A stretch of DNA of 64,000 bases, from NCBI GenBank assembly GCA_964019135.1, contig OZ025256.1:15197911-15261910 (forward strand), written 5' to 3'. The first letter of the stretch is position 1. Each line of letters opens with the position of its first letter. Both the position numbers and the translations under genes were made by a program. Shown here piece by piece: positions 3,564 to 60,252 of the stretch. The DNA comes from Arenicola marina (lineage: Eukaryota > Annelida > Polychaeta > Arenicolidae). The notes beneath the pieces are model-generated. The model was not told the DNA's origin. It saw nothing but the letters and a program-made list of their open reading frames with translations, and ran no database searches.

Positions 3564-3891
3564 TTATAGCTGTGTCGACTCATCTGTGGAAGGAAGGTAG
3601 GGATCAGTACTTTGTCGGCCGACTCGAGATCGACTTCGCGTGGTCACTGGTACATTGACCTTGCCATTTTGACCTTGACCTTTGCCCTCGTATGGCGTCG
3701 CCCACTCAACGTTTGTCTTGGCACTGTGATTTTTGGCGACTGCGCTGACGGGGTCAATTTCTGTTATACTTGGTTTCTCTTCGACATTTATTGTTGCATA
3801 ATCGCCATCCTCAAGGTCAAACCCCGCATTCGTGACGCCATCCATCGCAAGTTCGGCTTTCGCGGTCTTCTTTTTACACAACCCAATATTC
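3564..3891 (-). CDS. SLC22 gene, coding exon 12 (long cytosolic tail, stop)
   Basis: The acceptor CTATTTTTCAG|GAATAT is followed by a hydrophilic tail of about 108 residues: a basic start (GLCKKKTAKAE), an acidic middle (FDLEDGDYATINVEEK), a Ser/Arg-rich part (TTRSRSRVGRQS) and the end DESTQL. The tail is longer than in typical members. The last four residues STQL fit a class I PDZ ligand (S/T-x-hydrophobic), as does the STQF I recall for human URAT1. Confidence 0.9.
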
Positions 3892-6800
3892 CTGAAAAAT
3901 AGAGAACAAATATGACGCTCTTCAAGTATTCGATTTGTTTGAAAAGGTTTGAACAACTTAATATTACAAATTTCTTCTTTAAACTGTGTTACGGACGAAA
4001 GAATAATTAGTACATACTTGGCAAATTCCTCGCCTTCTTCCACCGTCTCAGGTAACTTCCGGTTCATAGTTTCAGGGAAAAAGATGGCGAATATTCCCGC
4101 CAATATGGACAAGATGCCATAGATGAGGAAGGGACCAGGGCTCCAGAATCCGGCCTGTGACGTCACAACAAAGACCCATCACTGATATATACACGAGGGT
4201 AATTCTGCGTAAGTAATATAGGTCAGACTTGCAAGTTAACTAGGATTTCATATTGTTGTCGTGAGAATCCACGACATGATAATACAACGTGACACCGCTT
4301 ATATAAATATATTTTGTAATCACTCATCGGTACAGGACGTGATTATAAGGCCGTAGCCAGGCCTATTTTTTTGTTTCGTTTTTTTAATAACATACTTTAT
4401 TTAGCAACCCACAATAAAATACAGATATATATATGTAATTACAAGTCAAAAGATAACCAGGTAAAGAAGTTGACTGATCAGACTAATTGGAAAAGAATGT
4501 TATCAATCACAGAACATATTTCATGGTTACCGCACTGACTATAAGTATATTTTCTAAAATGTAGTTCAAAATAAAAAAAAGGCACGACTCGATATTTCTC
4601 TCATGAGCAGAGAACCGCATTTGATATGATATCAAACACAATTATATTATTTGATAAGAATAATAACATCGCCGAATAAAATCATTTTATCTAATACTTG
4701 TTCAACATATGACCAGATACATTTTGCGCGGGGACATTCAAACAGAAGATGCTTGACGTCGTGGTCTTCGTTATATTCTTTGCACTGTGCGTCTTGAGAT
4801 AGTTTCATTCTGTAGCCAGGCCAATGACTCATCGGTATAGGACGCGATGATAAAGACTGTAGCCAGGCCTATGACTCATCGGTACAGGACGCGATGATCA
4901 AGGCCGTAGCCAGGCCTATGACTCATCGGTAAGGACGCGATGATCAAGGCCGTAGCCAGGCCTATGACTCATCGGTACAGGACGCGATGATAAAGGCCGT
5001 AGCCAGGCCTATGACTCATCGGTACAGGACGCGATGATCAAGGCCGGAGCCAGGCCTATGACTCATCGGTACAGGACGCGATGATCAAGGCCGTAGCCAG
5101 GCCTATGACGCATCGGTACAGGACCCGACGATAAAGGCCGTAGCCAGGCCTATGACGCATCGGTACAGGACCCGACGATAAAGGCCGTAGCCAGGCCTAT
5201 GACTCCTCGGTACAGGACGCGATAAAGGCCGTAGCCAGGCCTATGACTCCTCGGTAAGGACGCGACGATAAAGGCCGTAGCCAGGCCTATGACTCATCGG
5301 TATAGGACGCGATGATAAAGGCCGTAGCCAGGCCTATGACTCATCGGTACAGGACGCAATGATAAAGGCCGTAGCCAGGCCTATGACTCATCGGTAAGGA
5401 CGCGATAAAGGCCGTAGCCAGGCCAATGACTCATCGGTATAGGACCCGACGATCAAAGCTGTAGCCAGGCCTATGACTCATCGGTATAGGACGCGATGAT
5501 AAAGGCCGTAGCCAGGCCTATGACTCATCGGTATAGGACGCGATGATAAAGGCCGTAGCCAGGCCTATGACTCATCGGTACAGGACGCGATGATCAAGGC
5601 CGGAGCCAGGCCTATGACTCATCGGTACAGGACGCAATGATAAAGGCCGTAGCCAGGCCTATGACTCATCGGTAAGGACGCGATAAAGGCCGTGGCCAGG
5701 CCTATGACTCATCGGTATAGGACCCGACGATAAAAGCTGTAGCCAGGCCTATGACTCATCGGTACAGGACGCGATGATCAAGGCCGTAGCCAGGCCTATG
5801 ACTCATCGGTGCAGGACGCGATGATAAAGGCCGTAGCCAGGCATATGACTCATCGGTACAGGACGCGATGATCAAGGCTGTAGCCAGGCCAATGACTCAT
5901 CGGTAGAGGACGCGATGGTAAAGGCCGTAGCCAGACCTATGGCTCATCGGTACAGGACGCGATGATAAAGGCTGTAGCCAGGCCAATGACTCATCGGTAC
6001 AGGACGCGATGGTAAAGGCCGTAGCCAGACCTATGGCTCATCGGTACAGGACGCGACGATAAAGGCCGTAGCCAGGCCTATGACTCATCGGTACAGGACG
6101 CGATGATAAAGGCCGTAGCCAGGCCTATGACTCATCGGTACAGGACGCTATGATAAAGGCCGTAGCCAGGCCTATGACTCATCGGTACAGGACGCGATGA
6201 TCAAGGCCGGAGCCAGGCCTATGACTCATCGGTATAGGACGCGATGATAAAGGCCGTAGCCAGGCCTATGACTCATCGGTACAGGACGCGATGATAAAGG
6301 CCGTAGCCAGGCCTATGACTCATCGGTACAGGACGCCATGATAAAGGCCGTAGCCAGGCCTATGACTCATCGGTACAGGACGCGATGATAAAGGCCGTAG
6401 CCAGGCCTATGACGCATCGGTGTAGGACGCGATGATAAAGGCTGTAGCCAGGCCTATGACTCATCGGTACAGGACGCGATAAAGGCCGTAGCCAGGCCTA
6501 TGACTCGTCGATACAGGACGCGATAAATGCCGTAGCCAGGCCTATGACTCATCGGTACAGGACGCGATGATGAAGGCCGTAGCCAGGTCTATGACTCATC
6601 GGTACAGGACGCGATGATAAAGGCTGTAGCCAGGCCAATGACTCATCGGTAGAGGACGCGATGGTAAAGGCCGTAGCCAGACCTATGGCTCATCGGTACA
6701 GGACGCGATGATAAAGGCTGTAGCCAGGCCAATGACTCATCGGTACAGGACGCGATGGTAAAGGCCGTAGCCAGACCTATGGCTCATCGGTACAGGACGC

Positions 6801-9800
6801 GACGATAAAGGCCGTAGCCAGGCCTATGACTCATCGGTACAGGACGCCATGATAAAGGCCGTAGCCAGGCCTATGACTCATCGGTACAGGACGCTATGAT
6901 AAAGGCCGTAGCCAGGCCTATGACTCATCGGTACAGGACGCGATGATCAAGGCCGGAGCCAGGCCTATGACTCATCGGTATAGGACGCGATGATCAAGGC
7001 CGTAGCCAGGCCTATGACTCATCGGTACAGGACGCGATGATAAAGGCCGTAGCCAGGCCTATGACTCATCGGTACAGGACGCCATGATAAAGGCCGTAGC
7101 CAGGCCTATGACTCATCGGTACAGGACGCGATGATAAAGGCCGTAGCCAGGCCTATGTCGCATCGGTGTAGGACGCGATGATAAAGGCTGTAGCCAGGCC
7201 TATGACTCATCGGTACAGGACGCGATAAAGGCCGTAGCCAGGCCTATGACTCGTCGATACAGGACGCGATAAATGCCGTAGCCAGGCCTATGACTCATCG
7301 GTACAGGACGCGATGATAAAGGCCGTAGCCGGGCCTATGACTCGTCGGTACAGGACGCGATAAAGGCCGTAGCCAGGCCTATGACTCGTCGATACAGGAC
7401 GCGATAAATGCCGTAGCCAGGCCTATGACTCATCGGTACAGGACGCGATGATATAGGCCGTAGCCGGGCCTATGACTCGTCGGTACAGGACGCGATAAAG
7501 GCCGTAGCCAGGCCTATGACGCATCGGTACAGGACGCGATAAAGGCCGTAGCCAGGCCTATGACTCATCGGTACAGGACGCGATGATAAAGGCCGTAGCC
7601 AGGCCTATGACGCATCGGTACAGGACGCGATAAAGGCCGTAGCCAGGCCTATGACTCATCGGTACGGGACGGGATAAAGGCCGTAGCCAGGCCTATGACT
7701 CATCGGTACAGGACGCGATGATAAAGGCCGTAGCCGGGCTTATGACTCGTCGGTACAGGACGCGATGATAAAGGCCGTAGCCAGGCCTATGACTCATCGG
7801 TACAGGACGCGATGTTCAAGGCCGTAGCCAGGCCTATGACTCATCGGTACAGGACGCGATGATAAAGGCCGTAGCCAGGCCTATGACTCATCGGTACAGG
7901 ACGCGATGATCAAGGCCGGAGCCAGGCCTATGACTCATCGGTATAGGACGCGATGATAAAGGCCGTAGCCAGGCCTATGACTCATCGGTACAGGACGCGA
8001 TGGTAAAGGCCGTAGCCAGGCCTATGACTCATCGGTACAGGACGCGATGATAAAGGCCGTAGCCAGGCCTATGACTCATCGGTACAGGACGCGATGATCA
8101 AGGCCGTAGCCAGGCCTATGACTCATCGGTACAGGACGCCATGATAAAGGCCGTAGCCAGGCCTATGACTCATCGGTACAGGACGCGATGGTAAAGGCCG
8201 TAGCCAGGCCTATGACTCAACGGTACAGGACGCGAGGATCAAGGCTGTAGCCAGGCCTATGACGCATCGGTACAGAACGCGATGATAAAGGCCGTAGCCA
8301 GGCCTATGACGCATCGGTGTAGGACGCGATGATAAAGGCTGTAGCCAGGCCTATGACTCATCGGTACAGGACGCGATAAAGGCCGTAGCCAGGCCTATGA
8401 CTCGTCGATACAGGACGCGATAAAGGCCGTAGCCAGGCCTATGACTCATCGGTACAGGACGCGATGATTATGGCCGTAGCCGGGCCTATGACTCGTCGGT
8501 ACAGGACGCGATGATGAAGGCCGTAGCCAGGCCTATGACTCATCGGTATAGGACGCAATGATAAAGGCCGTAGCCGGGCCTATGACTCGTCGGTACAGGA
8601 CGCGATAAAGGCCGTAGCCAGGCCTATGACTCATCGGTACAGGACGCGATGATAAAGGCCGTAGCCAGGCCTATGACGCATCGGTACAGGACGCGATAAA
8701 GACCGTAGCCAGGCCTATGACTCATCGGTACAGGACGCGATGATCAAGGCCGTAGCCAGGCCTATGACGCATCGGTACAGGACGCGATAAAGGCCGTAGC
8801 CAGGCCTATGACTCATCGGTACAGGACGCGATGTTCAAGGCCGTAGCCAGGCCTATGACTCATCGGTACAGGACGCGATGATAAAGGCCGTAGCCAGGCC
8901 TATGACTCATCGGTACAGGACCCGACGATAAAGGCCGTAGCCAGGCCTATGACTCATCGGTACAGGACGCGATGTTCAAGGCCGTAGCCAGGCCTATGAC
9001 TCATCGGTACAGGACGCGATGTTCAAGGCCGTAGCCAGGCCTATGACTCATCGGTAGAGGACGCGATGTTCAAGGCCGTAGCCGGGCCTATGACTCGTCG
9101 GTACAGGACGCGATGATAAAGGCCCTAGCCAGGCCTATGACTCATCGGTACAGGACGCGATGATAAAGGCTGTAGCCAGGCCTATGACTCATCGGTATAG
9201 GACGCGATGATAAAGGCTGTAGCCAGGCCTATGACTCATCGGTATAGGACGCGATGATAAATGCTGTAGCCAGGCCTATGACTCATCGGTATAGGACGCG
9301 ATGATAAAGGCTGTAGCCAGACCTATGACTCATCGGTACAGGACGCGATGATAAAGGCCGTAGCCGGGCCTATGACTCATCGGTATAGGACGCGATGATA
9401 AAGGCTGTAGCCGGGCCTATGACTCATCGGTACAGGACGCGATGATAAAGGCCGTAGCCGGGCCTATGACTCAGCGGTATAGGACGCGATGATAAAGGCT
9501 GTAGCCGGGCCTATGACTCATCGGTACAGAACGCGATAAAGGCCGTAGCCAGGCCTATGACTCATCGGTAAGGACGTGATGATAAAGGCCGTAGCCAGGC
9601 CTATGACTCATCGGTACAGAACGCGATAAAGGCCGTAGCCAGGCCTATGACTCATCGGTAAGGACGTGATGATAAAGGCCGTAGCCAGGCCTATGACTCA
9701 TCGGTAAGGACGCGATGATAAAGGCCGTAGCCAGGCCTATGACGCATCGGTACAGGACGCGATAAAGGCCGTAGCCAGGCCTATGACTCATCGGTACGGG

Positions 9801-12800
9801 ACGGGATAAAGGCCGTAGCCAGGCCTATGACTCATCGGTACAGGACGCGATGATAAAGGCCGTAGCCGGGCTTATGACTCGTCGGTACAGGACGCGATGA
9901 TAAAGGCCGTAGCTAGGCCTATGACTCATCGGTACAGGACGCGATGTTCAAGGCCGTAGCCAGGCCTATGACTCATCGGTACAGGACGCGATGATAAAGG
10001 CCGTAGCCAGGCCTATGACTCATCGGTACAGGACGCGATGATCAAGGCCGGAGCCAGGCCTATGACTCATCGGTATAGGACGCGATGATAAAGGCCGTAG
10101 CCAGGCCTATGACTCATCGGTACAGGACGCGATGGTAAAGGCCGTAGCCAGGCCTATGACTCATCGGTACAGGACGCGATGATAAAGGCCGTAGCCAGGC
10201 CTATGACTCATCGGTACAGGACGCGATGATCAAGGCCGTAGCCAGGCCTATGACTCATCGGTACAGGACGCCATGATAAAGGCCGTAGCCAGGCCTATGA
10301 CTCATCGGTACAGGACGCGATGGTAAAGGCCGTAGCCAGGCCTATGACTCAACGGTACAGGACGCGAGGATCAAGGCTGTAGCCAGGCCTATGACGCATC
10401 GGTACAGAACGCGATGATAAAGGCCGTAGCCAGGCCTATGACGCATCGGTGTAGGACGCGATGATAAAGGCTGTAGCCAGGCCTATGACTCATCGGTACA
10501 GGACGCGATCAAGGCCGTAGCCAGGCCTATGACTCGTCGATACAGGACGCGATAAAGGCCGTAGCCAGGCCTATGACTCATCGGTACAGGACGCGATGAT
10601 AAAGGCCGTAGCCAGGCCTACGACGCATCGGTACAGGACGCGATAAAGACCGTAGCCAGGCCTATGACTCATCGGTACAGGACGCGATGATAAAGGCCGT
10701 AGCCAGGCCTATGACGCATCGGTACAGGACGCGATAAAGGCCGTAGCCAGGCCTATGACTCATCGGTACAGGACGCAATGTTCAAGGCCGTAGCCAGGCC
10801 TATGACTCATCGGTACAGGACGCGATGATAAAGGCCGTAGCCAGGCCTATGACTCATCGGTACAGGACCCGACGATAAAGGCCGTAGCCAGGCCTATGAC
10901 TCATCGGTACAGGACGCGATGTTCAAGGCCGTAGCCAGGCCTATGACTCATCGGTACAGGACGCGATGGTAAAGGCCGTAGCCAGGCCTATGACTCAACG
11001 GTACAGGACGCGAGGATCAAGGCTGTAGCCAGGCCTATGACGCATCGGTACAGAACGCGATGATAAAGGCCGTAGCCAGGCCTATGACGCATCGGTGTAG
11101 GACGCGATGATAAAGGCTGTAGCCAGGCCTATGACTCATCGGTACAGGACGCGATAAAGGCCGTAGCCAGGCCTATGACTCGTCGATACAGGACGCGATA
11201 AAGGCCGTAGCCAGGCCTATGACTCATCGGTACAGGACGCGATGATTATGGCCGTAGCCGGGCCTATGACTCGTCGGTACAGGACGCGATGATGAAGGCC
11301 GTAGCCAGGCCTATGACTCATCGGTATAGGACGCAATGATAAAGGCCGTAGCCGGGCCTATGACTCGTCGGTACAGGACGCGATAAAGGCCGTAGCCAGG
11401 CCTATGACTCATCGGTACAGGACGCGATGATAAAGGCCGTAGCCAGGCCTATGACGCATCGGTACAGGACGCGATAAAGACCGTAGCCAGGCCTATGACT
11501 CATCGGTACAGGACGCGATGAGCAAGGCCGTAGCCAGGCCTATGACGCATCGGTACAGGACGCGATAAAGGCCGTAGCCAGGCCTATGACTCATCGGTAC
11601 AGGACGCGATGTTCAAGGCCGTAGCCAGGCCTATGACTCATCGGTACAGGACGCGATGATAAAGGCCGTAGCCAGGCCTATGACTCATCGGTACAGGACC
11701 CGACGATAAAGGCCGTAGCCAGGCCTATGACTCATCGGTACAGGACGCGATGTTCAAGGCCGTAGCCAGGCCTATGACTCATCGGTACAGGACGCGATGT
11801 TCAAGGCCGTAGCCAGGCCTATGACTCATCGGTAGAGGACGCGATGTTCAAGGCCGTAGCCGGGCCTATGACTCGTCGGTACAGGACGCGATGATAAAGG
11901 CCCTAGCCAGGCCTATGACTCATCGGTACAGGACGCGATGATAAAGGCTGTAGCCAGGCCTATGACTCATCGGTATAGGACGCGATGATAAAGGCTGTAG
12001 CCAGGCCTATGACTCATCGGTATAGGACGCGATGATAAATGCTGTAGCCAGGCCTATGACTCATCGGTATAGGACGCGATGATAAAGGCTGTAGCCAGAC
12101 CTATGACTCATCGGTACAGGACGCGATGATAAAGGCCGTAGCCGGGCCTATGACTCATCGGTATAGGACGCGATGATAAAGGCTGTAGCCGGGCCTATGA
12201 CTCATCGGTACAGGACGCCATGATAAAGGCCGTAGCCGGGCCTATGACTCAGCGGTATAGGACGCGATGATAAAGGCTGTAGCCGGGCCTATGACTCATC
12301 GGTACAGAACGCGATAAAGGCCGTAGCCAGGCCTATGACTCATCGGTAAGGACGTGATGATAAAGGCCGTAGCCAGGCCTATGACTCATCGGTACAGAAC
12401 GCGATAAAGGCCGTAGCCAGGCCTATGACTCATCGGTAAGGACGTGATGATAAAGGCCGTAGCCAGGCCTATGACTCATCGGTAAGGACGCGATGATAAA
12501 GGCCGTAGCCAGGCCTATGACGCATCGGTACAGGACGCGATAAAGGCCGTAGCCAGGCCTATGACTCATCGGTACGGGACGGGATAAAGGCCGTAGCCAG
12601 GCCTATGACTCATCGGTACAGGACGCGATGATAAAGGCCGTAGCCGGGCTTATGACTCGTCGGTACAGGACGCGATGATAAAGGCCGTAGCCAGGCCTAT
12701 GACTCATCGGTACAGGACGCGATGTTCAAGGCCGTAGCCAGGCCTATGACTCATCGGTACAGGACGCGATGATAAAGGCCGTAGCCAGGCCTATGACTCA

Positions 12801-27800: not shown

Positions 27801-30800
27801 TAAAACTGAATATCAGAACAGAGACTGTCATAAATATACTTTGGTTATTGATATCACGGTGGCGCCGCCTCGCGAATGTCTTGAATTTGAGACCACCTAG
27901 CGAGCACTCTTTATGGGCGATATTCTAGTGCATGTCAAATGTAATCAAAAATAAATAAGAATAAATATTAAAATCCGGACCTTTGATCATGTGTTATTTT
28001 ATTTTGAAAATCAATGCGTTTTATATCCCAGAAATCCCAGAAAGAGTGACAATGCTAAATATCTATTTGGAGTTCCGGTGGGACGGTTGAAAAAAGGGAC
28101 AAAATTAGCATGCATACTGTAGCAGAGCACACCAGTCAATACTAGACAATAACTAAATGGGCCAAGGAACGAGCGATTAGGATGTGGCAGGTATTTTATG
28201 TTTGTGTTTGTCTCGATACAGTGATTATAATAAACGATTCCAACTGACAATATATCTACATATGACGTCATTTCCTGTACTCACTCATGACGAATATCGT
28301 GGTGAAGCTGCCTGCCGCCGCTGTCCCAACGAAAAAGCGCAATGTGACGTAAGCAGCGTAGTTAGGGATAAAGGTGGCAACGGTCGCAAAGACAACCTCC
28401 ATCACCAGGGAGATGACCAGAGCGGTGTAACGTCCCCATCTGAAAGCCAAGTAGGACGAAATGTACATCATTTGTACACCAATCATTATTGCATACGGTA
28501 TTACATGATTTTCAATAACCTGGTTTGTTTTATATTATTATGGCTCAATGATTGAAGTTTGAGATTTTATAGACGATGTGCAAATATTGTCGATAACAAT
28601 GCTATTTCGAGGGTCATTGACATAACATGTTATGGACGAAATCCTGCTTAAATGACCTGGTAACTTAACCACATGTGTGTCTTTGTACAGAAAACTTGGC
28701 GATTAAATGTTGAAATTTGAAAAAAATATTTTAATTTAGTGATTTTATGGTGGTGTAGTAATCACATAATGCTGAATGCGCGTGCACCATGTGTCCCTTG
28801 TGTATAAAGCTACCATGAGTTAAGCACTCGATCCCTCTTATGTATATAATCTCCATCTGCCCCTCACTCTCTGTCTCTTTCTCTCGGTCTCTGTGTCTCT
28901 TCGATCTCTATCCGTTTCTCTCTGTGTGTCTCTCTCTATCGCTCTCTCTGTCTCACACACTATCTTTCCGTCTCTCGCCCTATATATATATATCATTACA
29001 ATACCTGTCTGAGACTTGGCCGAAGCCGATACAACCCAGTAGAAACCCGGCCATGTACACGGTCTGTATGATGGAGACAAGGTTGGCGTCATCACAGACC
29101 AAGTCAAACTGCGGAAAACCAGAAAAACACCCATGCATAGTGATCAACCAATGACCGGAACAAACAATCTAAATTGCCCAAAACCAATATACCCTTTCGC
29201 TAGTAAATAGGCTAACGGAAACATTCATTTGTCAAGATCAAAAGAATGATTTCATTTGTAAAACCAATATATCCATAATTTTTTCTTGGTAAATGGATAA
29301 AAATAATATTGTTGAAATATTAGGCGGTAAAGCTAATATTTCTATCAAACATTTCGGCTTTTAGTCAAAACAACTTCCTGTGGGATTTCCATGGAATTCT
29401 CAATGGACGTCACATTCCGCGTTGGCGACCGATATGAGATTATCCCAAGTAATATTAACTCACACGGTGGCCCGCGAAAAGGTAATAACACGATAAACTA
29501 GGACATGTTGCATTAACAAGCAAGATCGACAATCAATCGGAAATAATTGCAACGAAACGCATAGATGTCGCATTCTCTATTTTCATTTTGCGCCGCTAGA
29601 TGGCGCTGCTATTTAACCGACCTGGCTGACTACTGAGGACACAAACTGGGACTTGTCGTACACCCAGCCATCGGGACCGCACTTCCGGGTAGCGGTGCCC
29701 TCTGGCGACATCACCGAGCGGTTCCATGTCAGGAAGTCTTCCGTGTCGTACTGGCTGAGGGAGGACGAGAGGGTGATTAGTGGCGGCCATTTATACATAT
29801 TCACTTACATGTCTACCCCGGATATCATGCCAACGTTAAGTTAGATCAACGTTATCAGCTACGTTTCAGTTACGTTATATGTTAATGTTATTCTAACGTC
29901 ATTTTGCTCATTGATGTAACGTTGCATGTTAACGTTAAGAGCAGACATTTTAAAACTAATATTTAACGGTAGCGATCGGCAAAAGCCGGCCTTACTGCTG
30001 CTGGGCACCAAGTGACACTGCGTATTTCCCGAAAGGATGACCCAACCGACGCCGGCTTTATATTAAACCTATATCAAAGACCTGGTTCAATAAAGTATTA
30101 GGACAAGCATAATTTTATGTGATTTCTAACCCCCAAACTTATTCTTCGATATGCTCGATGTCCCAGTACATGACTTACCTGTTGTTAAGGATGCCCCAGT
30201 ACATGACTTACCTGTAGTTAAGGATGCCCCAGTACATGACTTACCTGTAGTTAAGGATGCCCCAGTAATTGACTTACCTGTAGTTAAAGATGCCCCAGTA
30301 CATGACTTACCTGTAGTTAAGGATATCCCAGTACATGACTTACCTGTTGTTAAGGATGCCCCACTACATGACTTACCTGTAGTTAAGGGTGCCCCAGTAC
30401 TTGACTTAGCTGTAGTTAAGGATGACCCAGTACATGACTTACCTGTAGTTAAGGATGCCCCAGTAATTGACTTACCTGTAGTTTAGAATGCCCCAGTACG
30501 TGACTTACCTGTAGTTAGGGATGCCCCAGCACATAACTTACCTGTAGTTAAGGATGCCCCAGTAATTGACTTACCTGTAGTTAAGGATGCCCCAGTACTT
30601 GACTTACCTGTAATTAAGGATGCCCCAGTACATGACTTACCGGTAGTTAAGGATGCCCCAGTACATGACTTACTGGTAGTTAAGGATGCCCCAGTACATG
30701 ACTTACCTGTAGTTAAGGATGCCCCAGTGCTGCACTTACCTGTAAATAAGGATGCCCCAGTACTTGACTTACCTGTAGTTAAGGATGCCCCAGTGCTTCA

Positions 30801-33800
30801 CTTACCTGTAGTTAAGGATGCCCCAGTGCTTCACTTACCTGTAGTTAAGGATGCCCCAGTACATGACTTACCTGTAGTTAAAGGTGCCCAAGTACATGAC
30901 TTACCGGTAGTTAAGGATGCCCCAGTACATGACTTACCTGTAGTTAAGGATGCCCCAGTAATTGACTTACCTGTAGTTCGAGCTGCCCCAGTACATGACT
31001 TACCTGTAGTTAAGGATGCCCCAGTACATGACTTACCGATAGTTAAGGATGCCCCAGTACATGACTTACCTGTAGTTTAGGATGCCCCAGTACGTGACTT
31101 ACCTGTAGTTAAGGATGCCCCAGTGCTTCACTTACCTGTAGTTAAGGATGCCCCAGTACATGACTTACCTGTAGTTAAAGATGTCCCAGTACATGACTTA
31201 CCTGTAGTTAAGGATGCCCCAGTACTTGACTTACCTGTAGTTAAGTATGCGCCAGTACTTCACTTACTTCTTGTTAAGGATGCCCCAGTACTTGACTTAC
31301 CTGTAGTAAAGGATGTCCCAGTACTTGACTTACCTGTAGTAAAGGATGCCCCAGTACATGACTTACCTGTTGTTAAGGATGCCCCAGTACATGACTTATC
31401 TGTTGTGCAGCATGCCCCAATACTTGACTTACCTGTAGTTCAGGATGCCCCAGTACTTGACTTACCTGTAGTTAAGGATGCCCCAGTACATGACTTACCT
31501 GCAGTTAAGGATGCCCCAGTAATGACTTATCTGTAGTTAATGGTGCCCCAGTACATGACTTACCTGTAGTTAAGGGTGCCCCAGTACTTGACTTACCTGT
31601 AGTTAAGTATGCCCCAGGACTTGAATTACCTGTAGTTAAGGATGTCCCAGTACTTCACTTACTTGTTGTTAAGGATGCCCCAGTACGTGACTTACCTGTA
31701 GTAAAGGATGCCCCAGTACTTGACTTACTTGTTGTTATGGATGGCCCAGTACTTGACTTACCTGTAGTAAAGGATGCCCCAGTACATGACTTACCTGTAG
31801 TTAAGTATGCCCCAGGACTTGAATTACCTGTAGTTAAGGATGCCCCAGCACGTGACTTACCTGTAGTTAAGGATGCCCCAGTACATGACTTACATGTAGT
31901 TAAGGATGCCCCAGTACATGACTTACCTGTAGTTAAGGGTGCCCCAGTATTTGACTTACCTGTAGTTAAGGACGTTCCAGTACATGACTTACCTCTAGTT
32001 AAGGGTGCCCCAGTACATGACTTATCTGTAGTTAAGGGTGCCCCAGTACATGACTTACCTGTAGTTAAGGGTGCCCCAGTACATGACTTACCTCTAGTGA
32101 AGGATGCCCCAGTAATGACTTATCTGTAGTTAAGGGTGCCCTAGTACATGACTTACCTGTAGTTAACGGTGCCCCAGTACATGACTTACCTGTAGGTAAG
32201 GATGCCCCAGTACTTGACTTACCTGTAGTTAAGGATGCCCAAGTGCATGACTTACCTGTAGTTAAGGATGCCCCAGGACTTGAATTACCTGTAGTCAAGG
32301 ATGCCCCAGCACGTGACTTACCTGTAGTTAAGGATGCCCCAGTACATGACTTACCTGTAGTTAAGGATGCCCCAGTACATGACTTACCTGTAGTGAAGGG
32401 TGCGCCAGTATTTGACTTACCTGTAGTTAAGGACGTCCCAGTACATGACTTACCTCTAGTTAAGGGTGCCCTAGTACATGACTTATCTGTAGTTAAGGAT
32501 GCCCCAGTACATGACTTACCTTTAGTTAAGGGTGCCCCAGGACATGACTTACCTTTAGTTAAGGGTGCCCCAGGACATGACTTACTTGTAGTTAAGGGTG
32601 CCCCAGTACATGACTTACCTGTAGTTAAGGGTGCCCCAGTATTTGACTTACCTGTAGTTAAGGACGTCCCAGTACATGACTTACCTGTAGTTAAGGATGC
32701 CCCAGTACATGACTTACCTGTAGTTAAGGGTGCCCCAGTATTTGACTTACCTGTAGTTAAGGACGTCCCAGTACATGACTTACCTCTAGTTAAGGGTGCC
32801 CTAGTACATGACTTATCTGTAGTTAAGGATGCCCCAGTACATGACTTACCTTTAGTTAAGGGTGCCCCAGGACATGACTTACCTTTAGTTAAGGGTGCCC
32901 CAGTACATGACTTACCTTTAGTTAAGGGTGCCCCAGGACATGACTTACCTGTAGTTAAGGATGCCCCAGTACATGACTTACCTGTAGTTAAGGGTGCCCC
33001 AGTATTTGACTTAACTGTAGTTAAGGACGTCCCAGTACATGACTTACCTGTAGTTAAGGATGCCCCAGTACATGACTTACCTGTAGTTAAGGATGCCCCA
33101 GTACATGACTTACCTTTAGTTAAGGGTGCCCCAGGACATGACTTACCTGTAGTTAAGGGTGCCCCAGTACATGACTTACCTGTAGTTAAGGATGCCCCAG
33201 TACTTGACTTACCTGTAATTAAGGATGCCCCAGTACTTGACTTACCTGTTGTAAAGGATGCCCCAGTACATGACTTACCTGTAGTTAAGGATGCCCCAGT
33301 GCTTCACTTACCTGTAGTTAAGGATGCCCCAGTACATGACTTACCTGTAGTTAAGGATGCCCCAGTACATGACTTTCCTGTAGTTCAGGATGCCCCAGTA
33401 CATGACTTACCGGTAGTTAAGGGTGCCCCAGTACTTGACTTAGCTGTAGTTAAGGATGACCCAGTACATGACTTACCTGTAGTTAAGGATGCCCCAGTAA
33501 TTGACTTACCTGTAGTTTAGAATGCCCCAGTACGTGACTTACCTGTAGTTAGGGATGCCCCAGCACATAACTTACCTGTAGTTAAGGATGCCCCAGTAAT
33601 TGACTTACCTGTAGTTAAGGATGCCCCAGTACATGACTTACCGGTAGTTAAGGATGCCCCAGTACATGACTTACTGGTAGTTAAGGATGCCCCAGTACAT
33701 GACTTACCTGTAGTTAAGGATGCCCCAGTGCTGCACTTACCTGTAAATAAGGATGCCCCAGTACTTGACTTACCTGTAGTTAAGGATGCCCCAGTGCTTC

Positions 33801-36800
33801 ACTTACCTGTAGTTAAGGATGCCCCAGTGCTGCACTTACCTGTAGTTAAGGATGCCCCAGTACATGACTTACCTGTAGTTAAAGGTGCCCAAGTACATGA
33901 CTTACCGGTAGTTAAGGATGCCCCAGTACATGACTTACCTGTAGTTAAGGATGCCCCAGTAATTGACTTACCTGTAGTTCGAGCTGCCCCAGTACATGAC
34001 TTACCTGTAGTTAAGGATGCCCCAGTACATGACTTACCGATAGTTAAGGATGCCCCAGTACATGACTTACCTGTAGTTTAGGATGCCCCAGTACGTGACT
34101 TACCTGTAGTTAAGGATGCCCCAGTGCTTCACTTACCTGTAGTTAAGGATGCCCCAGTACATGACTTACCTGTAGTTAAAGATGTCCCAGTACATGACTT
34201 ACCTGTAGTTAAGGATGCCCCAGTACTTGACTTACCTGTAGTTAAGTATGCGCCAGTACTTCACTTACTTCTTGTTAAGGATGCCCCAGTACTTGACTTA
34301 CCTGTAGTAAAGGATGTCCCAGTACTTGACTTACCTGTAGTAAAGGATGCCCCAGTACATGACTTACCTGTTGTTAAGGATGCCCCAGTACATGACTTAT
34401 CTGTTGTGCAGCATGCCCCAATACTTGACTTACCTGTAGTTCAGGATGCCCCAGTACTTGACTTACCTGTAGTTAAGGATGCCCCAGTACATGACTTACC
34501 TGCAGTTAAGGATGCCCCAGTAATGACTTATCTGTAGTTAATGGTGCCCCAGTACATGACTTACCTGTAGTTAAGGGTGCCCCAGTACTTGACTTACCTG
34601 TAGTTAAGTATGCCCCAGGACTTGAATTACCTGTAGTTAAAGATGTCCCAGTACTTCACTTACTTGTTGTTAAGGATGCCCCAGTACGTGACTTACCTGT
34701 AGTAAAGGATGCCCCAGTACTTGACTTACTTGTTGTTATGGATGGCCCAGTACTTGACTTACCTGTAGTAAAGGATGCCCCAGTACATGACTTACCTGTA
34801 GTTAAGTATGCCCCAGGACTTGAATTACCTGTAGTTAAGGATGCCCCAGCACGTGACTTACCTGTAGTTAAGGATGCCCCAGTACATGACTTACATGTAG
34901 TTAAGGATGCCCCAGTACATGACTTACCTGTAGTTAAGGGTGCCCCAGTATTTGACTTACCTGTAGTTAAGGACGTTCCAGTACATGACTTACCTCTAGT
35001 TAAGGGTGCCCCAGTACATGACTTATCTGTAGTTAAGGGTGCCCCAGTACATGACTTACCTGTAGTTAAGGGTGCCCCAGTACATGACTTACCTCTAGTG
35101 AAGGATGCCCCAGTAATGACTTATCTGTAGTTAAGGGTGCCCTAGTACATGACTTACCTGTAGTTAACGGTGCCCCAGTACATGACTTACCTGTAGGTAA
35201 GGATGCCCCAGTACTTGACTTACCTGTAGTTAAGGATGCCCCAGTGCATGACTTACCTGTAGTTAAGGATGCCCCAGGACTTGAATTACCTGTAGTCAAG
35301 GATGCCCCAGCACGTGACTTACCTGTAGTTAAGGATGCCCCAGTACATGACTTACCTGTAGTTAAGGATGCCCCAGTACATGACTTACCTGTAGTTAAGG
35401 GTGCCCCAGTATTTGACTTACCTGTAGTTAGGGACGTCCCAGTACATGACTTACCTCTAGTTAAGGGTGCCCTAGTACATGACTTATCTGTAGTTAGGGA
35501 TGCCCCAGTACATGACTTACCTTTAGTTAAGGGTGCCCCAGGACATGACTTACCTTTAGTTAAGGGTGCCCCAGGACATGACTTACCTGTAGTTAAGGGT
35601 GCCCCAGTACATGACTTACCTGTAGTTAAGGGTGCCCCAGTATTTGACTTACCTGTAGTTAAGGACGTCCCAGTACATGACTTACCTGTAGTTAAGGATG
35701 CCCCAGTACATGACTTACCTGTAGTTAAGGGTGCCCCAGTATTTGACTTACCTGTAGTTAAGGACGTCCCAGTACATGACTTACCTCTAGTTAAGGGTGC
35801 CCTAGTACATGACTTATCTGTAGTTAAGGATGCCCCAGTACATGACTTACCTTTAGTTAAGGGTGCCCCAGGACATGACTTACCTTTAGTTAAGGGTGCC
35901 CCAGTACATGACTTACCTTTAGTTAAGGGTGCCCCAGGACATGACTTACCTGTAGTTAAGGATGCCCCAGTACATGACTTACCTGTAGTTAAGGGTGCCC
36001 CAGTATTTGACTTACCTGTAGTTAAGGACGTCCCAGTACATGACTTACCTGTAGTTAAGGATGCCCCAGTACATGACTTACCTTTAGTTAAGGGTGCCCC
36101 AGGACATGACTTACCTGTAGTTAAGGGTGCCCCAGTACATGACTTACCTGTAGTTAAGGATGCCCCAGTACTTGACTTACCTGTAATTAAGGATGCCCCA
36201 GTACTTGACTTACCTGTTGTAAAGGATGCCCCAGTACATGACTTACCTGTAGTTAAGGATGCCCCAGTGCTTCACTTACCTGTAGTTAAGGATGCCCCAG
36301 TGCTTCACTTACCTGTAGTTAAGGATGCCCCAGTACATGACTTACCTGTAGTTCAGGATGCCCCAGTACATGACTTACCGGTAGTTAAGGATGTCCCAGT
36401 ACAAGACTTACCTGTAGTTGAGGTCGTACACTCTGCACTGGCTGTAGTCGCCGGCCTCATCGGCTGCCGCCACGTATTTCTGCGTGTTATAGGACAGGTT
36501 CGCCAGTTCCGGTACCAGGCACCAGTGGTCCATGTGGCCTCCGAAGAACGTCAGCCCCAGATTCTGCCATCCTGAAGTACAGGTCCTCAAGTTGGGGTCA
36601 CTGGTGTACTGAGTACTTGATTTAAAGGTCATTGGTCACCTGGTAGCCGAGTAAGTAGTTGGATGCATTTCGAACCTTGTCGACGTTGCCTGCCTGTGGC
36701 CTGCGAACGGTGCTTTAGTTCTCCTCTCCATTGAGTCAGTGTCCATATATAAACCAAATAATCATCCTCACACAGCATGGGTTTCCAAATACATGGGGAA

Positions 36801-38395
36801 AGTACGGTTTGTGAATTACGCCCATGACGATGTTTTAGAATGTGTGTTTAGTTGAACGAGTCTAGCCTGAACACTTAGTGGAGTGAAGATATTTTTGGTA
36901 AGACAGACAAAACAGCCCTTGTTCTTTTAAATTTAAATGTAGATGACGACAATAGAATGTTGGTCTGTCGTGAGCCAATCCTGGCTGTTAAAGTTGAGTT
37001 CAGAAGAAAAGCCAGAAAACCCTTGTCTATCACACGCACCACCCTTAGGCTCTTGCGCGGCGATTTGGTAAATTATGTAATCATAACGTTTGAGAGTTAT
37101 GCAATCATAACGTTGGTGAGTTATGTAAACATAACGATGGTGAGTTATGTAATCGTAACGTTGGTGAGTTATGTAATCGTAACGTTGGTGAGTTATGTAA
37201 TCATAACGTTGATGAGTTATGTAAATTCTTTGCTTTACGTAGTCATAACGTCTTTGAATGGTGTAAAATAATAACGTTTTGAATTGTGTACAATGATAAC
37301 ATTGGATTAAGCAAAATCCTTAGGTAATGTCATAACGGGTTTGCATTGTGTAAAATGTTATCATGTTATGCGAACTAATACTACTGCCATGGTCCACTGT
37401 GCATGGAAACGATTTGGCGCAAGTGCCCCCAGGCAAGCCCGCTTCTCTAAGGGCACAACGGTAACAATGTTAAAATCCTTCGACGTTAGTAGGGAATCGA
37501 CTGTAGCTTTTATTATAATGTGTCCTCGATCAATCATAGTGTTTACGTATTCTATATACCTTGTTCTATCATCTGACATCAAAAAAGTGTGTCGACACTA
37601 GGTTCTTTCGATTATATTTTCGCGAAGAAATGTTGGAGCACACAACTGTTCCCGACCAGCCATCCGCCATATTTGTTTTTGGCGGATGCCGGTACCTGTG
37701 AATGCGAGTTGGTTCCTTCTCGCCGTTAGCATATGACTCTCCACTAGAGGGCCTTGTCAGTCGCTCACTTTGAACTTAAGGACAACAGCAGCGCCCTCTT
37801 TCACAGGTCATTGACAGTTACAAAGTTTGGGACCCAGGCTACATATGGTTCAAATGGTGGCGGGATTCGCCAGGTGGCGCTGCATACACATGGCGGGTGG
37901 CAGGGAAAAGTTGCATGCTCCAACATTTGTTCGCGAAAATATGACTGGAACAATCTAGTGTTGACACAATTTCTTGATGTCACAAGATAGAACAAGGTAT
38001 ATAGAATACGTAAGCACTATTATTGTACGCGTCCGCATTATAATAAAAGCTACAGTCGATTCCCTACTAACGTCGAAGGATTTTAACATTGTTACCGTTG
38101 TGCCCCTAGAGAAGCGGAAACTGAAACTGAAACTGAAATTTGAATATTAAAATGAACACTTTTGTTTGGTGTACGATGTGATATACCACATACCCAATGA
38201 ACATTTAGATTGACCATAAATAATTTTCCGGGATTTCCGTGTTTTATAACCACAAGAGGCACAATTAACGAAGAAAGACACCGTGAAAACAGAACACTTA
38301 CCTGTCGGTAGTCCGACGAGACAAAGCAGGATATAGAGACATATTTGATATGGTCCGAGTTCCCCAATGGCTCGTAAAACATCGTCGAAAAGCAT
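3564..38395 (-). CDS. SLC22 family organic cation/carnitine/anion transporter, 12 coding exons, 634 aa
   Basis: Joined exons (minus strand): 38395-38302, 36571-36412, 29754-29622, 29108-29005, 28439-28285, 27753-27585, 26373-26235, 25436-25354, 24005-23785, 23166-22985, 4154-4018, 3891-3564; 1905 nt including stop, in frame throughout. The product is a 12-helix major-facilitator carrier of the plasma membrane. Hallmarks: start MLFDDVLRAIGELGPYQ; a large Cys-bearing extracellular loop (about 42-135) ending GPDGWVYD and FDLVCDD; motif D163-R-W-G-R167 after helix 2; ESPRWL at 276-281; D390-K-T-G-R394 between helices 8 and 9; AELFPT at 448-453; PETMNRKLPET near 507. Exons 4-6 are 104, 155 and 169 nt, lengths I recall for vertebrate OCT genes. 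The cytosolic tail is long (about 526-634; usual family length is about 550) and ends in STQL. Substrate cannot be read from sequence. Confidence 0.93.
4018..4154 (-). CDS. SLC22 gene, coding exon 11 (helix 12)
   Basis: The acceptor GACGTCACAG|GCCGG gives AGFWSPGPFLIYGILSILAG, helix 12 and the family sequence FPETMNRKLPETVEEGEEF, then donor GCCAA|GTATGT. Phase 0 in, phase 2 out. Confidence 0.92.
4319..22548. repeat. Giant 47-bp minisatellite array filling SLC22 intron 10
   Basis: The consensus unit is about 47 bp: GACTCATCGGTACAGGACGC followed by GATGATAAAGGCCGTAGCCA and GGCCTAT. Shorter variants lack ATGAT or the CAG of GTACAG, giving units of about 37-47 bp. Roughly 380-400 units run from 4813 to 22548, with one stranded unit at 4319-4366 on the other side of a LINE insertion. 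Variants recur in fixed order, so higher-order blocks exist: the rare GGTACGGGACGGGAT unit occurs at 7661, 9793, 12571, 17971 and 19583. Stops interrupt all frames, so it is not coding. No unique spacers, so not CRISPR. Confidence 0.97.
4367..4812 (-). mobile_element. 5'-truncated non-LTR retrotransposon (3' end) inserted in the 47-bp array
   Basis: On the minus strand the piece ends in an A-rich tail (reverse complement of the T-rich 4367-4385) and encodes near its start QCKEYNEDHDVKHLLFECP and a following IW, the C-terminal zinc-knuckle-like motif of LINE reverse-transcriptase proteins. Both flanks carry GTAGCCAGGCC(T/A)AT from the array (4353-4366 and from 4813), consistent with a target-site duplication of about 14 bp, although array repetition could imitate one. 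Coding capacity is lost after about 50 residues. Confidence 0.8.
22607..22984. repeat. GATGATGRCAGA-type minisatellite abutting the exon 10 donor
   Basis: Imperfect 15-bp units (GATGATGGCAGATTA, GATGATGACAGAGAA and variants), about 25 copies. On the minus strand the array begins within the donor itself: GTGAGTCTGCCATCATC, then repeated TCTGCCATCATC units. The Ser/Leu-rich open frames are a by-product of the multiple-of-three period. Confidence 0.9.
22985..23166 (-). CDS. SLC22 gene, coding exon 10 (helices 10-11)
   Basis: The acceptor GCTCCTCAG|AGTTGG is followed by ELEIYFTVFLMLGKF, helix 10, the AELFPTVMRQVGVG signature, and the start of helix 11 (CARVGGLIQPQINLV). The donor is CTCGTG|GTGAGT, phase 0. 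A GATGAT-type minisatellite starts immediately after this donor, and the following intron is 18.8 kb. Confidence 0.93.
23785..24005 (-). CDS. SLC22 gene, coding exon 9 (helices 7-9)
   Basis: The acceptor TACCTGCAG|GTTCG gives WFVTSMVYYGLSLG, helix 8 with SGLVEIPAYV, the D-K-T-G-R-K signature and helix 9 to PLIDNE. The donor is GAAG|GTTTAT, a weak site. It is chosen because it gives the correct frame and the usual family spacing to the next exon. An alternative end a few codons away is possible. Confidence 0.88.
24421..24450. repeat. (TCTG)n microsatellite in SLC22 intron 8
   Basis: About seven TCTG tetramers, interrupted once near the start. Simple slippage repeat, no other signal. Confidence 0.8.
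24764..24963. repeat. 33-bp minisatellite, six copies, SLC22 intron 8
   Basis: Unit AATATTGCCTGGACCCTGGC plus CCATCACGACGGT, six almost identical copies with one T-to-C change in the last (AATACTG). The 33-bp period leaves several frames open on both strands, which explains the repetitive open frames here. It does not touch either flanking exon. Confidence 0.95.
25354..25436 (-). CDS. SLC22 gene, coding exon 8 (end of loop, start of helix 7)
   Basis: A short exon (83 nt): acceptor CAATGTTAG|GTCGGC, then VGDTKASLPDLFRKPNIRKI and TLNMWFC plus TG, donor GCTG|GTATGT. The DLFR-P-IRK-T run and a Trp at the start of helix 7 are typical of the family. The acceptor has a poor pyrimidine tract, and the last 24 intron bases are multiplied in intron 7. 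Confidence 0.9.
25437..26090. repeat. 37-38-bp minisatellite derived from the exon 8 acceptor, SLC22 intron 7
   Basis: About 17 units, plus-strand core CCTAACATTGATAACACAGG then CTGAGGTAAGTCCCCCTC. On the minus strand each copy reads CTCAGCCTGTGTTATCAATGTTAG with one line break after 20 bases: CTCAGCCTGTGTTATCAATG, TTAG. The real intron end is the same with one difference (CCTATG). The array therefore duplicates the 3' splice site. Copies decay with distance from the exon (after about 25900). Confidence 0.92.
26235..26373 (-). CDS. SLC22 gene, coding exon 7 (cytosolic loop)
   Basis: The acceptor TTACCACAG|CATGG completes AMATESPRWLVSEG, the ESPRWL signature at the start of the large cytosolic loop, then a basic stretch DKKAIKVLKKISA and an acidic end. 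The donor is AAACC|GTAAGT, phase 0. The length is 139 nt. Confidence 0.92.
26570..26851. other. AT-rich intron 7/6 flank with an (ATTT)n tract
   Basis: Part of SLC22 intron 6. It starts with TTATTTATTTATTTATTT, the kind of tail found at 3' ends of some non-LTR elements, followed by about 250 bp without coding potential. I cannot identify an element. Confidence 0.3.
26852..27618. repeat. 49-bp minisatellite duplicating the exon 6 end and its 5' splice site, SLC22 intron 6
   Basis: Sixteen units at an exact 49-bp period (26852, 26901, 26950 ... 27587); the last is the real exon end. On the minus strand each unit has CCATCTGCCCGATCATGATG, TGGGCTCTCTTCGC, then donor GTGAGT and about 10 intron bases. 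Copies vary at a few sites (GGGCAG, GGGCGG, GGGAAG; GTTGTA, GTAGTA, GTTGCA) and one has lost the GC before the donor (27340s). Confidence 0.96.
27585..27753 (-). CDS. SLC22 gene, coding exon 6 (helices 5-6)
   Basis: The acceptor GCCTTTCAG|GCATGG gives MEIIGPKYRMATGIM...ICPITMWALF plus GC, donor TTCGC|GTGAGT (phase 2). The length is 169 nt. Its last 34 bases together with the donor are the sequence multiplied in the 49-bp array of intron 6. Here the exon reads CCGATCACGATG, where the array copies read CCGATCATGATG. Confidence 0.93.
28285..28439 (-). CDS. SLC22 gene, coding exon 5 (helices 3-4)
   Basis: The acceptor GGCTTTCAG|ATGGGG completes D-R-W-G-R and runs through helices 3 and 4 to FTTIFVM, donor ATGA|GTGAGT (phase 1). 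The length is 155 nt. A second GT (GTAC, six bases on) is excluded because only this donor joins in frame to the next exon's SMEIIGPKYR. Confidence 0.93.
28852..28993. repeat. CT-rich microsatellite and (TA)n, SLC22 intron 4
   Basis: A degenerate TCTC/TCTG tract of about 120 bp followed by TATATATATATA, ending 11 bp from the exon 4 donor. Open frames of Ser/Leu on plus and Arg/Glu on minus are artefacts of composition. Confidence 0.85.
29005..29108 (-). CDS. SLC22 gene, coding exon 4 (helix 2 and motif A)
   Basis: The acceptor TTCCGCAG|TTTGAC gives FDLVCDDANLVSIIQ...YMAGFLLGCIGFGQVSD plus two bases, donor GACAG|GTATTG. This is helix 2 and the first half of the D-R-x-G-R signature. The length of 104 nt equals what I recall for the corresponding OCT exon. 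Confidence 0.93.
29622..29754 (-). CDS. SLC22 gene, coding exon 3 (extracellular loop)
   Basis: The acceptor CTCCCTCAG|CCAGTAC gives SQYDTEDFLTWNRSVM...KCGPDGWVYDKSQFVSSVVSQ, the distal extracellular loop, with sequon NRS. The donor is CAGCCAG|GTCGGT, weaker than its neighbours but in the family position, leaving phase 0 before FDLVCDD. Confidence 0.9.
30145..36412. repeat. 33-bp minisatellite of about 190 copies carrying the exon 2 donor, SLC22 intron 2
   Basis: Plus-strand unit CCAGTACATGACTTACCTGT plus AGTTAAGGATGCC. On the minus strand each unit reads AACTACAG|GTAAGTCATG, the same 8 exon bases and donor as the true exon 2 end. A higher-order period of 3001 bp is visible: distinctive units at 30727, 31123, 31737 and 32243 recur at 33728, 34124, 34738 and 35244. 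The plus-strand frames of up to 443 codons (VKDAPVHDLPV repeats) follow from a period divisible by three and have no start context or family. Confidence 0.97.
36412..36571 (-). CDS. SLC22 gene, coding exon 2 (extracellular loop)
   Basis: The acceptor TACTTCAG|GATGG is followed by WQNLGLTFFGG...HWCLVPE...QCRVYDLNY and donor AACTACAG|GTAAGT (phase 2). It completes helix 1 and begins the Cys-rich extracellular loop, with an N-glycosylation sequon NLS. The donor and its last 8 exonic bases are the template of the 33-bp array that fills intron 2. The first copies of the array follow the donor without a gap. Confidence 0.92.
37067..37225. repeat. 24-bp minisatellite, SLC22 intron 1
   Basis: About six units of TTATGTAATCATAACGTTGG plus TGAG, with decaying copies up to about 37350 (GTAATGTCATAACGGG, GTGTAAAATGATAACG). 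The plus strand has GTTG|GTGAGT in each unit, a donor-like string on the strand opposite to the gene. Confidence 0.85.
37439..38117. mobile_element. Foldback-type inverted repeat, SLC22 intron 1
   Basis: Arms 37439-37670 and 37890-38117 are imperfect inverted copies (about 230 bp each) around a 219-bp centre. The outermost part is nearly perfect: CCGCTTCTCT then GGCACAACGGTAACAATGTT and AAAATCCTTCGACGTTAGTA. The structure suits a foldback/MITE-like DNA element. No target-site duplication is evident and no transposase is encoded. As intronic RNA it could form a long hairpin. Confidence 0.8.
38302..38395 (-). CDS. SLC22 gene, coding exon 1
   Basis: Encodes residues 1-31 plus one base: the cytosolic N-terminus MLFDDVLRAIGELGPYQ and most of helix 1. 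The donor is CGACAG|GTAAGT (phase 1). The ATG is chosen because the following residues match the usual SLC22 N-terminus. I see no TATA box in the 60 bp upstream, and a non-coding 5' exon further up cannot be excluded. Confidence 0.9.
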
Positions 38396-39938: not shown

Positions 39939-41060
39939 TTACATAGAGTCTGATAGTGGTCTCCATTTCTTATAAAACATATCTGTACTAAAGTTCAGCT
40001 TCCTTTCTACCGCGCTCTTTTCGAGCCTATAGTAATGGTTTATATAGTTTTTCACAGCCTGAAAAACTGGAACTGTGTTGGACCACTTGCAGTAATATAT
40101 ATATTTTTTAGCAATTAAAGTCAAGTGATTAATAAGTTCGCTATGTGGGGACCAAACTACTCCAAACATACTTGATATTAGTGTAAATCGGGTACATATG
40201 GTCTGGGCTGATGCGGCCTCGAGCCAACGTTCTAACTCTTGCCAAATGGGTCTCACATATAGGCATTCAAAGAGAAGGTGCTCAATTGTTTCTGATGAAA
40301 CAGAGCAGAAAACGCACATCTCTGAAGTAGCTAATTTACTTCTGTGCAAGAAACGATTTGTTATTAGAACTCTTTGCAAAACTAAAAACTGGAAGCTCCG
40401 AGTCCTCTCGTCTACAGTAGCCTTTGATGCTCTAGTATATATATCACACCATTTACTTTTATCAATTTCTATTCCTAACACCTCTGACCACTTACTTTCG
40501 TTATTCGTGGTATACTGCAAGGACTCCACCAAACTGTTGTAAACCTTATTACATAAGCGTGTTGACGTAGATATATAATTTAAAAAGGAGTGTGGCACAT
40601 CTAGTAACTTATGTCCCTTATTTATACATTGACCTCGCCATTCTTTTGGTATGGCATGCATTATTCCATAGAAGTCGACAAAGTTAATGCTAATGCTATA
40701 TTTATCTGTAATTTTTTTCCAGTCTAATAGCGACCCTTCATTTTTCACAAGGTCGTTCATGTAAGTTACACCTTTCTCTATGAAATACTTTTTTCTCTTT
40801 ATTAGGTTCTTATTTCTCATAAAGTAAGTATTCCAAAGCGGTCGTTCTAAGACATTCTCGTTTGAACCAGTGTACATACAATTTTTTAGGTTTAGACACG
40901 CTCTGAAAACATCTGCCCAGAAAGGGTTGCATATATTAACAAAATACCTTAGTGACTTCGTATCTAGCTCCCAAACGAGTGCACGTTCGCTGCAAATCGT
41001 GCTGCAAAACAAATCTTGCCACGCTCCTTCATTCACAATAATTTTTCTAACCCATGACAT
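39939..41060 (-). pseudogene. C-terminal domain of the LINE ORF2-like protein, frameshifted from its RT
   Basis: Open for 373 codons from MSWVRKIIVNEGAWQDL to PLSDSM. The frame continues upstream of the Met as GGIKLPHIPSFLDAVK, meaning the domain is joined to the RT but shifted by one base. It has the C-x2-C-x9-H-x5-C type motif (CVFC, EHLLFEC) seen in such elements and an end-to-end ORF, so the copy is not very old. Confidence 0.85.
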
Positions 41061-42567: not shown

Positions 42568-42600
42568 GTTGCAAAAATCTGGTCGGCCTTTACACGGTCA

Positions 42601-59910: not shown

Positions 59911-60250
59911 ATGCCGGACTTGCCCGAACTACGGAAACGACTGACACGCCTGGCGCCATCATTGAAGACATTGGCCGAGAAATGGAGTTGGTATGTTGGG
60001 AGAAAAGGCGTTGTCAATTTTGGTCGTGCATGAACATGTAAGTACGATGTTTATATTCCTTCTAGATCAATACCGATGGACTAGGATACCAAAAGAAGAC
60101 TTTCTTTCCTTCGCCCCTTGGTGTTTTCGATTCGACGTGAGTCAGAGAAAAGTTTAATTTGTTAATGGAATGAGTGCATTTTCGCTGAGAACATGGGCGG
60201 GGGGTGGGGGGGGGGGGGGTTGGCTCTCTACTTTCTGAAAACATGCGGTT
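59911..60250 (+). other. Short stretch between two arrays, possible small exon (59908-59993)
   Basis: From the last array unit an ATG (59910) opens MPDLPELRKRLTRLAPSLKT LAEKWSW, with a donor GAGTTG|GTATGT at 59993/59994. Unspliced, the frame stops at 60031. Charged, helix-like composition but no family recognised. The rest is non-coding with a G run (60199-60219). Confidence 0.25.
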
Positions 60251-60252
60251 GA

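Follow-up and report, generated by a model that had tools for sequence, protein, structure and literature searches.

Minisatellites that span intron-exon borders, termed mirages, have been described in amphioxus, where excerpts of two reports place them at Adh3, the globin genes BflGb6 and BflGb9, TnC, and PGBD5 (PMC3087553, PMC3902484). The same excerpts report undisturbed splicing at Adh3, TnC, and the globins, and BflGb6 haplotypes that differ in mirage copy number. Internal tandem repeats at exon-intron boundaries are also described in human segmental-duplication genes, with 27 intron modifications given in an excerpt of the source (PMC2812944). The Rogers model, in which introns are gained by tandem duplication of AGGT-bearing segments, appears in excerpts of PMC3087553, and a potato RdRp case in PMC4974935. 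Repeats in intron 1 of earthworm metallothionein (mean monomers of 178 and 181 bp) were considered and set aside; the monomers lie within the intron, and the excerpt of the source states no link to a border (PMC12783039). A search of the open literature, with most subscription papers and bioRxiv outside its reach, found neither a genome-wide survey of splice-border arrays nor an annelid case.

Here, we describe a gene of the annelid Arenicola marina in which tandem arrays occur at four of 22 splice borders. Two have grown from an exon end together with its donor, one lies at an acceptor AG, and one begins at +5. The original prediction for this DNA had named the amphioxus mirages as a possible known class, and the two reports cited above describe that class.

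A transporter gene with arrays at its splice borders

The window, which is the whole 64-kb stretch of DNA analysed, holds one gene of 12 exons on its minus strand (3564-38395), every intron of which is GT-AG (Table 1). The coding sequence of 1905 nt encodes 634 amino acids without an internal stop. Among solved structures, the predicted protein matches OCTN2 (E 5.6e-83, residues 3-520) and OCT2 best, and it contains the Pfam domains Sugar_tr (4.7e-34) and MFS_1. By this full-length similarity, the gene is an SLC22 transporter. Counting arrays of at least three copies with a period of at least 9, seven arrays make up 26,128 (75.0%) of the 34,832 bases of the gene. A retroelement lies about 1.5 kb upstream (39939-42597, minus strand), with reverse transcriptase and zf-RVT domains in several frames, and the window holds two further arrays of considerable size outside the gene (58895-62600), one of 23 bp x 44 and one of 20 bp x 117.

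Table 1 Exons and tandem arrays of the SLC22 transporter gene (window coordinates).
Feature	Position	Strand	Description
Exon 1 (coding part, from ATG)	38302..38395	-	gene model
Intron 1 array	37065..37224	-	24 bp x 6.7; 493 nt to nearest junction, not a border array
Exon 2	36412..36571	-	gene model; final 11 nt open repeat unit 1
Intron 2 array	30157..36423	-	33-bp unit, ~190 copies, CTTAACTACAG|GTAAGT..., donor-spanning
Exon 3	29622..29754	-	gene model
Exon 4	29005..29108	-	gene model
Exon 5	28285..28439	-	gene model
Exon 6	27585..27753	-	gene model; final 33 nt open repeat unit 1
Intron 6 array	26853..27618	-	49 bp x 15.6; exon 6 end 33 nt + intron 16 nt, donor-spanning
Exon 7	26235..26373	-	gene model
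Intron 7 array	25436..26053	-	~38-bp unit x 16.4; exon 8 acceptor from last copy (..ATCAATGTTAG|GTCGGC)
Exon 8	25354..25436	-	gene model
Intron 8 array	24759..24965	-	33 bp x 6.3; 388 nt to nearest junction, not a border array
Exon 9	23785..24005	-	gene model
Exon 10	22985..23166	-	gene model
Intron 10 array	22607..22979	-	15 bp x 24.6; begins at +5, inside donor consensus
Intron 10 second array	4812..22548	-	47 bp x 383; 436 nt from donor, not a border array
Exon 11	4018..4154	-	gene model
Exon 12 with stop	3564..3891	-	gene model

The first unit of the intron 2 array consists of the last 11 nt of exon 2, the donor, and 16 further intron bases, and the edge of the array lies about 11-12 nt inside the exon. 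The unit consensus joins ..CTACAG to GTAAGT; GT is retained in 174 of 190 units, and 129 of the 190 carry the perfect 9-mer CAGGTAAGT. There are 71 distinct unit sequences, and a one-base shift occurs in 4/190. Units 91 apart are 97.5% alike (99 pairs), which corresponds to an internal block duplication of 91 units (about 3.0 kb) and attests to past turnover of the array. By duplex energy, U1 pairing in 128 of the 189 further units is as strong as at the real donor. The nine donor columns have a mean variability of 0.047 versus 0.099 for the rest of the unit, a difference that ranks 3 of 33 rotations and is not significant. Since the copies still pair with U1 and their donor columns are no more variable than the rest, the decoy donors appear to be neither purged nor clearly kept. 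Read-through past exon 2 or exon 6 meets a stop codon at once, in the donor itself, so only the exon-proximal donor would keep the frame at these two introns.

In intron 6, the array edge lies about 33-34 nt inside exon 6. The unit sequences of introns 2 and 6 each occur at a single place in the 867-Mb assembly, in a search that skipped very common words, which makes both arrays look like local growths rather than members of a dispersed family. This agrees with the independent births that had been proposed for the arrays of this gene. The intron 7 unit ends in ..GTTAG, and the AG of its last copy is the exon 8 acceptor, placing the array edge at -1; this AG is in frame with the SLC22 alignment, and the unit contains no exon sequence except a shared G. 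On the plus strand of this acceptor-side array (25436-26053), the donor-like motif GAGGTAAG is present six times, that is, a strong donor motif in antisense. The 15-bp array of intron 10 does not copy the GT of the donor and is the weakest of the four border cases.

The original prediction that four arrays start at or copy splice junctions of this gene is confirmed, with edges about 12 and 34 nt into the exons, at -1, and at +5. Introns 2 and 6 hold true copies, intron 7 extends to the AG only, and intron 10 does not copy the GT. The largest array of the gene, with 383 copies of a 47-bp unit, was not among the arrays that it named. A lone 47-bp unit lies at 4310-4370 of the window, about 440 bp off the main array.

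A Branchiostoma host, which had been presumed earlier, is not borne out by the gene content of the assembly, in which the innexins and the annelid-type haemoglobin linkers make an annelid-like protostome quite probable. Innexins are few in amphioxus, which has GFP and sialyltransferases, and number about twenty in annelids. In the assembly, 29 innexin matches from more than 20 genes were found. No candidates for the GFP and sialyltransferase families were obtained in the assembly search, which by itself does not prove absence, and the mollusc haemocyanin family gave 14 candidates and no matches. The family "Annelid erythrocruorin linker subunit C-terminus" had four exon matches, apparently from two neighbouring genes, and the best solved relative of one of them is the extracellular haemoglobin linker L3 of an earthworm (2gtl, E 8e-6). 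The best solved match of a tektin exon was 8snb, a sea urchin structure, and does not settle the matter. Contigs C390, C504, C536, and C621 (locus L035) have kinesin and sugar-transporter matches with in-frame TAG or TAA, and L035 is open under the ciliate code. These contigs look as though they came from a ciliate, present in the assembly as a companion or contaminant.

Border arrays against the array density of the genome

The assembly of 867 Mb has 17 contigs of 33-77 Mb besides C9. Array density was sampled in 17 stretches of 10 kb (L001-L017), taken at position 5,000,001 of contigs C1-C20; C9 was left out, and C15, C16, and C21 were too short. Tandem arrays with a period of at least 6 occupy 75,734 of the 170,000 sampled bases (about 45%). 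Three of the 17 stretches are fully array, and six are at least 80% array. Arrays with a period of at least 9 number one in every 1,813 bp of non-array DNA, with a median unit of 30. The motif AGGTRAG occurred in 0/51 array units of these stretches against a null mean of 0.30, a sample too small to judge. Because nearly half of the sampled genome is tandem array, some border arrays are expected anyway. The SLC22 gene has four, compared with 0.66-1.24 expected at the density of the genome or of the gene itself (P 0.005-0.04), which is not a fair test since the gene was picked for its striking arrays.

For a fairer sample, exons were taken by family (tektin, kinesin, and transporters) irrespective of arrays. 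The tektin sample comprised 27 exon matches, 26 of which belong to five genes with approximately 22 introns; the remaining match (C19, below the family cut-off) was left out. Among the 133 kinesin matches, five on C390, C504, and C536 and an intronless gene (C1:27.41 Mb) were left out. The first kinesin set consisted of the first 20 remaining matches in list order with 350-bp flanks, and the second of 18 of the next 20 matches, on the donor side only and 180 nt beyond. Nine of 110 transporter candidates (PF00083) were scored. Four of the nine loci showed one uninterrupted open frame and no intron across the match, and a fifth was located on a contig carrying in-frame TAG, which left four usable exons. 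Outside the window, splice sites were set by eye with the domain matches as a guide, and the sample denominators are slightly too large because a few matches stop before the true exon end (e.g., L037). An array at +28 whose splice site is uncertain (L058) was counted as a control.

Junction-spanning donor arrays were found in two tektin loci (L027, 40 bp, at least 174 copies; L026, 33 bp x 9.7), three kinesin loci (L042, 71 bp; L048, 89 bp; L065, 61 bp), and one SLC22-like exon (L036, 44 bp), where, by eye, most copies have lost the GT. Arrays that do not span the junction but lie within 25 nt of it occur on the donor side at L054 and L057 and on the acceptor side at L039, L049, and L018. With several genes affected, arrays at borders look like a common trait of this genome and not a peculiarity of the SLC22 gene. 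The tektin loci L027 and L018 (C11:2043500-2056819) delimit one intron of about 8.4 kb, which opens with the donor-spanning array (at least 174 copies) and closes with a 34-bp array whose unit has a pyrimidine tract like that of the acceptor.

If duplications hit introns evenly and some simply touched a border in an array-full genome, 3.3-6.1 border arrays (no more than 25 nt away, or entering the exon) would be expected in this sample with founder units of 29-75 bp; there were 11 at 110 borders (P 0.0006-0.045). Junction-spanning units were present at 6 of 64 donors against 0.67-2.3 expected (P 7e-5 to 0.03). Within the kinesin set, eight arrays lie farther from borders in 12.5 kb of flank, and the naive border rate exceeds that of the flanks 7.5-fold (Fisher p 3e-4), with P 0.002-0.08 in a conservative count. 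These figures speak against coincidence. On its side are the sampled density itself, with one array in every 1.8 kb of non-array DNA, and the three of seven arrays of the SLC22 gene that lie far from borders. The result also depends on the founding-unit count, and long founders (75 bp) shrink the excess to P 0.045 for all borders or 0.08 for kinesin alone. Overall, we regard coincidence as unlikely.

The first bin had been set in advance at -30 to +20 nt and was widened, after the data had been seen, to any array that lies no more than 25 nt from the border or enters the exon. Three kinesin units that extend about 40-55 nt into the exon prompted this change; of 58 kinesin borders, the strict bin holds 4 and the widened one 7. 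With moderate confidence, arrays appear to be over-represented at borders, two- to nine-fold depending on the counting method, on the basis of 110 borders. The description of the SLC22 gene as an extreme case in the original prediction is weakened by the array content of the genome and by the junction-spanning units at donors of other genes.

Donors and acceptors differ. No unit holding exon bases was found at 46 acceptors, compared with 6 of 64 donors in the sample (Fisher p 0.039); with the SLC22 gene of the window included, the counts are 0/57 and 8/75 (p 0.010). The acceptor side of this comparison is thin, consisting of three sampled acceptor-side border arrays and intron 7. Under the usual rules of splicing, a surplus donor located downstream of the correct one is passed over, a surplus acceptor located upstream of the correct one is used, and the AG that first follows the branch point tends to be chosen. 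The asymmetry therefore matches what splicing rules let through, and it offers a simple prediction that can be checked wherever a genome of this type has been annotated. Exceptions to the rule exist, since acceptor-side units with exon sequence occur in the amphioxus globin BflGb6, according to an excerpt of PMC3087553.

Origin and persistence of border arrays

We consider it probable that these arrays are splice-border minisatellites working like the amphioxus mirages, in an annelid genome saturated with minisatellites, where tolerance acts together with an excess at borders. Short tandem duplications would arise very often in such a genome, and some of them, as in introns 2 and 6, cover an exon end and its donor. 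The exon-side copy remains joined to the coding sequence, and each extra copy lands in the intron. From the reading frame and known splicing rules, a duplication of this type would be nearly harmless: exon definition would favour the exon-proximal donor, and splicing from any later donor of intron 2 or 6 would bring in a stop codon immediately. Free of coding constraint, the intronic copies have multiplied and diverged, as the 71 distinct units and the 91-unit block duplication of intron 2 show, presumably through slippage and unequal exchange; the first copy meanwhile retains its coding role. On the acceptor side, arrays come up to the AG or close to it and do not enter the exon, as copies bearing exon sequence would disrupt the message if the first AG tends to be chosen. 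The tolerance proposed in the original prediction fits both the immediate stops of introns 2 and 6 and the restriction of junction-spanning units to donors. Beyond tolerance, arrays at borders appear to exceed the array density of the genome.

That prediction had also suggested a specific process by which tandem duplication begins at exon-intron borders, such as slippage in replication or repair. Breaks or template switching where chromatin or base composition changes, or damage linked to transcription at 5' splice sites, would be further candidates. The excess over local intron density favours such a process, and it recurs in genes not picked for their arrays; tolerance alone cannot lift the rate above that of introns. 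Genome-wide, three copies of CAGGTAAGT spaced 20-50 bp apart gave 1490 matches compared with 593 for the backward pattern. Of the 1490, 62 fall in the window, and the places listed form five clusters, all on C1; given this clustering, the census supports an excess of tandem donors rather than a tally of independent events. The excess is moderate and comes from 110 borders, no mark of a process was found, and better detection or longer survival of arrays at borders is an alternative. A border-initiating process is a possible but quite unlikely cause. Far less probable is a function of the arrays, either as many U1-binding donors that protect a long transcript from premature 3' end cleavage or as AG|GT stepping points of recursive splicing: the AG|GT joint of the intron 2 unit, its frequent perfect 9-mer, and its slightly less variable donor columns would suit such a role, but units and periods differ among introns and genes, the intron 2 unit has by eye no clear pyrimidine tract or well-spaced branch point, most L036 copies have lost the GT, and the rank of the donor columns is not significant.

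A more general proposal can be put forward tentatively, and we would not count on it: donors may be preferred birthplaces of minisatellites across animal phyla, with about one donor in 11 (6 of 64 sampled) a founder here, owing to a higher rate of duplication at donors and to the first-donor rule, which would admit the copies into the intron. If so, the introns of such genomes would grow largely from their own 5' splice sites. Should the border excess hold with full annotation, it would provide a concrete source both of minisatellites and of longer introns, together with a natural experiment in the choice of one donor among nearly 200 nearly identical ones. It would also mean that mirages, described mainly in amphioxus, occur in a distant phylum, and for that reason their cause would likely be general, lying in duplication and splicing rules, rather than lineage-specific.

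Comparison with mirages and other boundary repeats

The amphioxus mirages and the SLC22 arrays have in common tandem copies of exon ends with a splice signal and a unit length that varies from gene to gene. Taking as a mirage any unit that spans the border and holds the splice signal, two of the four arrays belong to the class, namely those of introns 2 and 6; the intron 7 array reaches only the AG, and that of intron 10 falls outside, as it starts at +5 without a copy of the GT. Amphioxus mirages occur at both 5' and 3' borders, as do the arrays described here. Unlike the mirages, the present arrays are found in an annelid genome, with approximately 190 copies in one intron and four borders affected in one gene. 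Further differences are that unrelated families are affected, that the few acceptor-side units contain no exon bases, and that the arrays are known from DNA alone.

The human boundary repeats resemble the SLC22 arrays in their units of about 30 bp and variable number. In the excerpt of their source, they are linked with young primate duplicates and with either the birth of introns or alternative splicing; the SLC22 arrays are far longer, and they extend the introns of a gene that is intact. The Rogers model, as given in the excerpts, shares the starting event, a tandem duplication of an AG|GT segment; there, the copy makes a new intron, whereas here an existing intron is lengthened. The border arrays of the SLC22 gene would work like mirages and are best described as a probable variant of that kind, not as the amphioxus mirage itself: the kind is already known, and the host and the scale differ.
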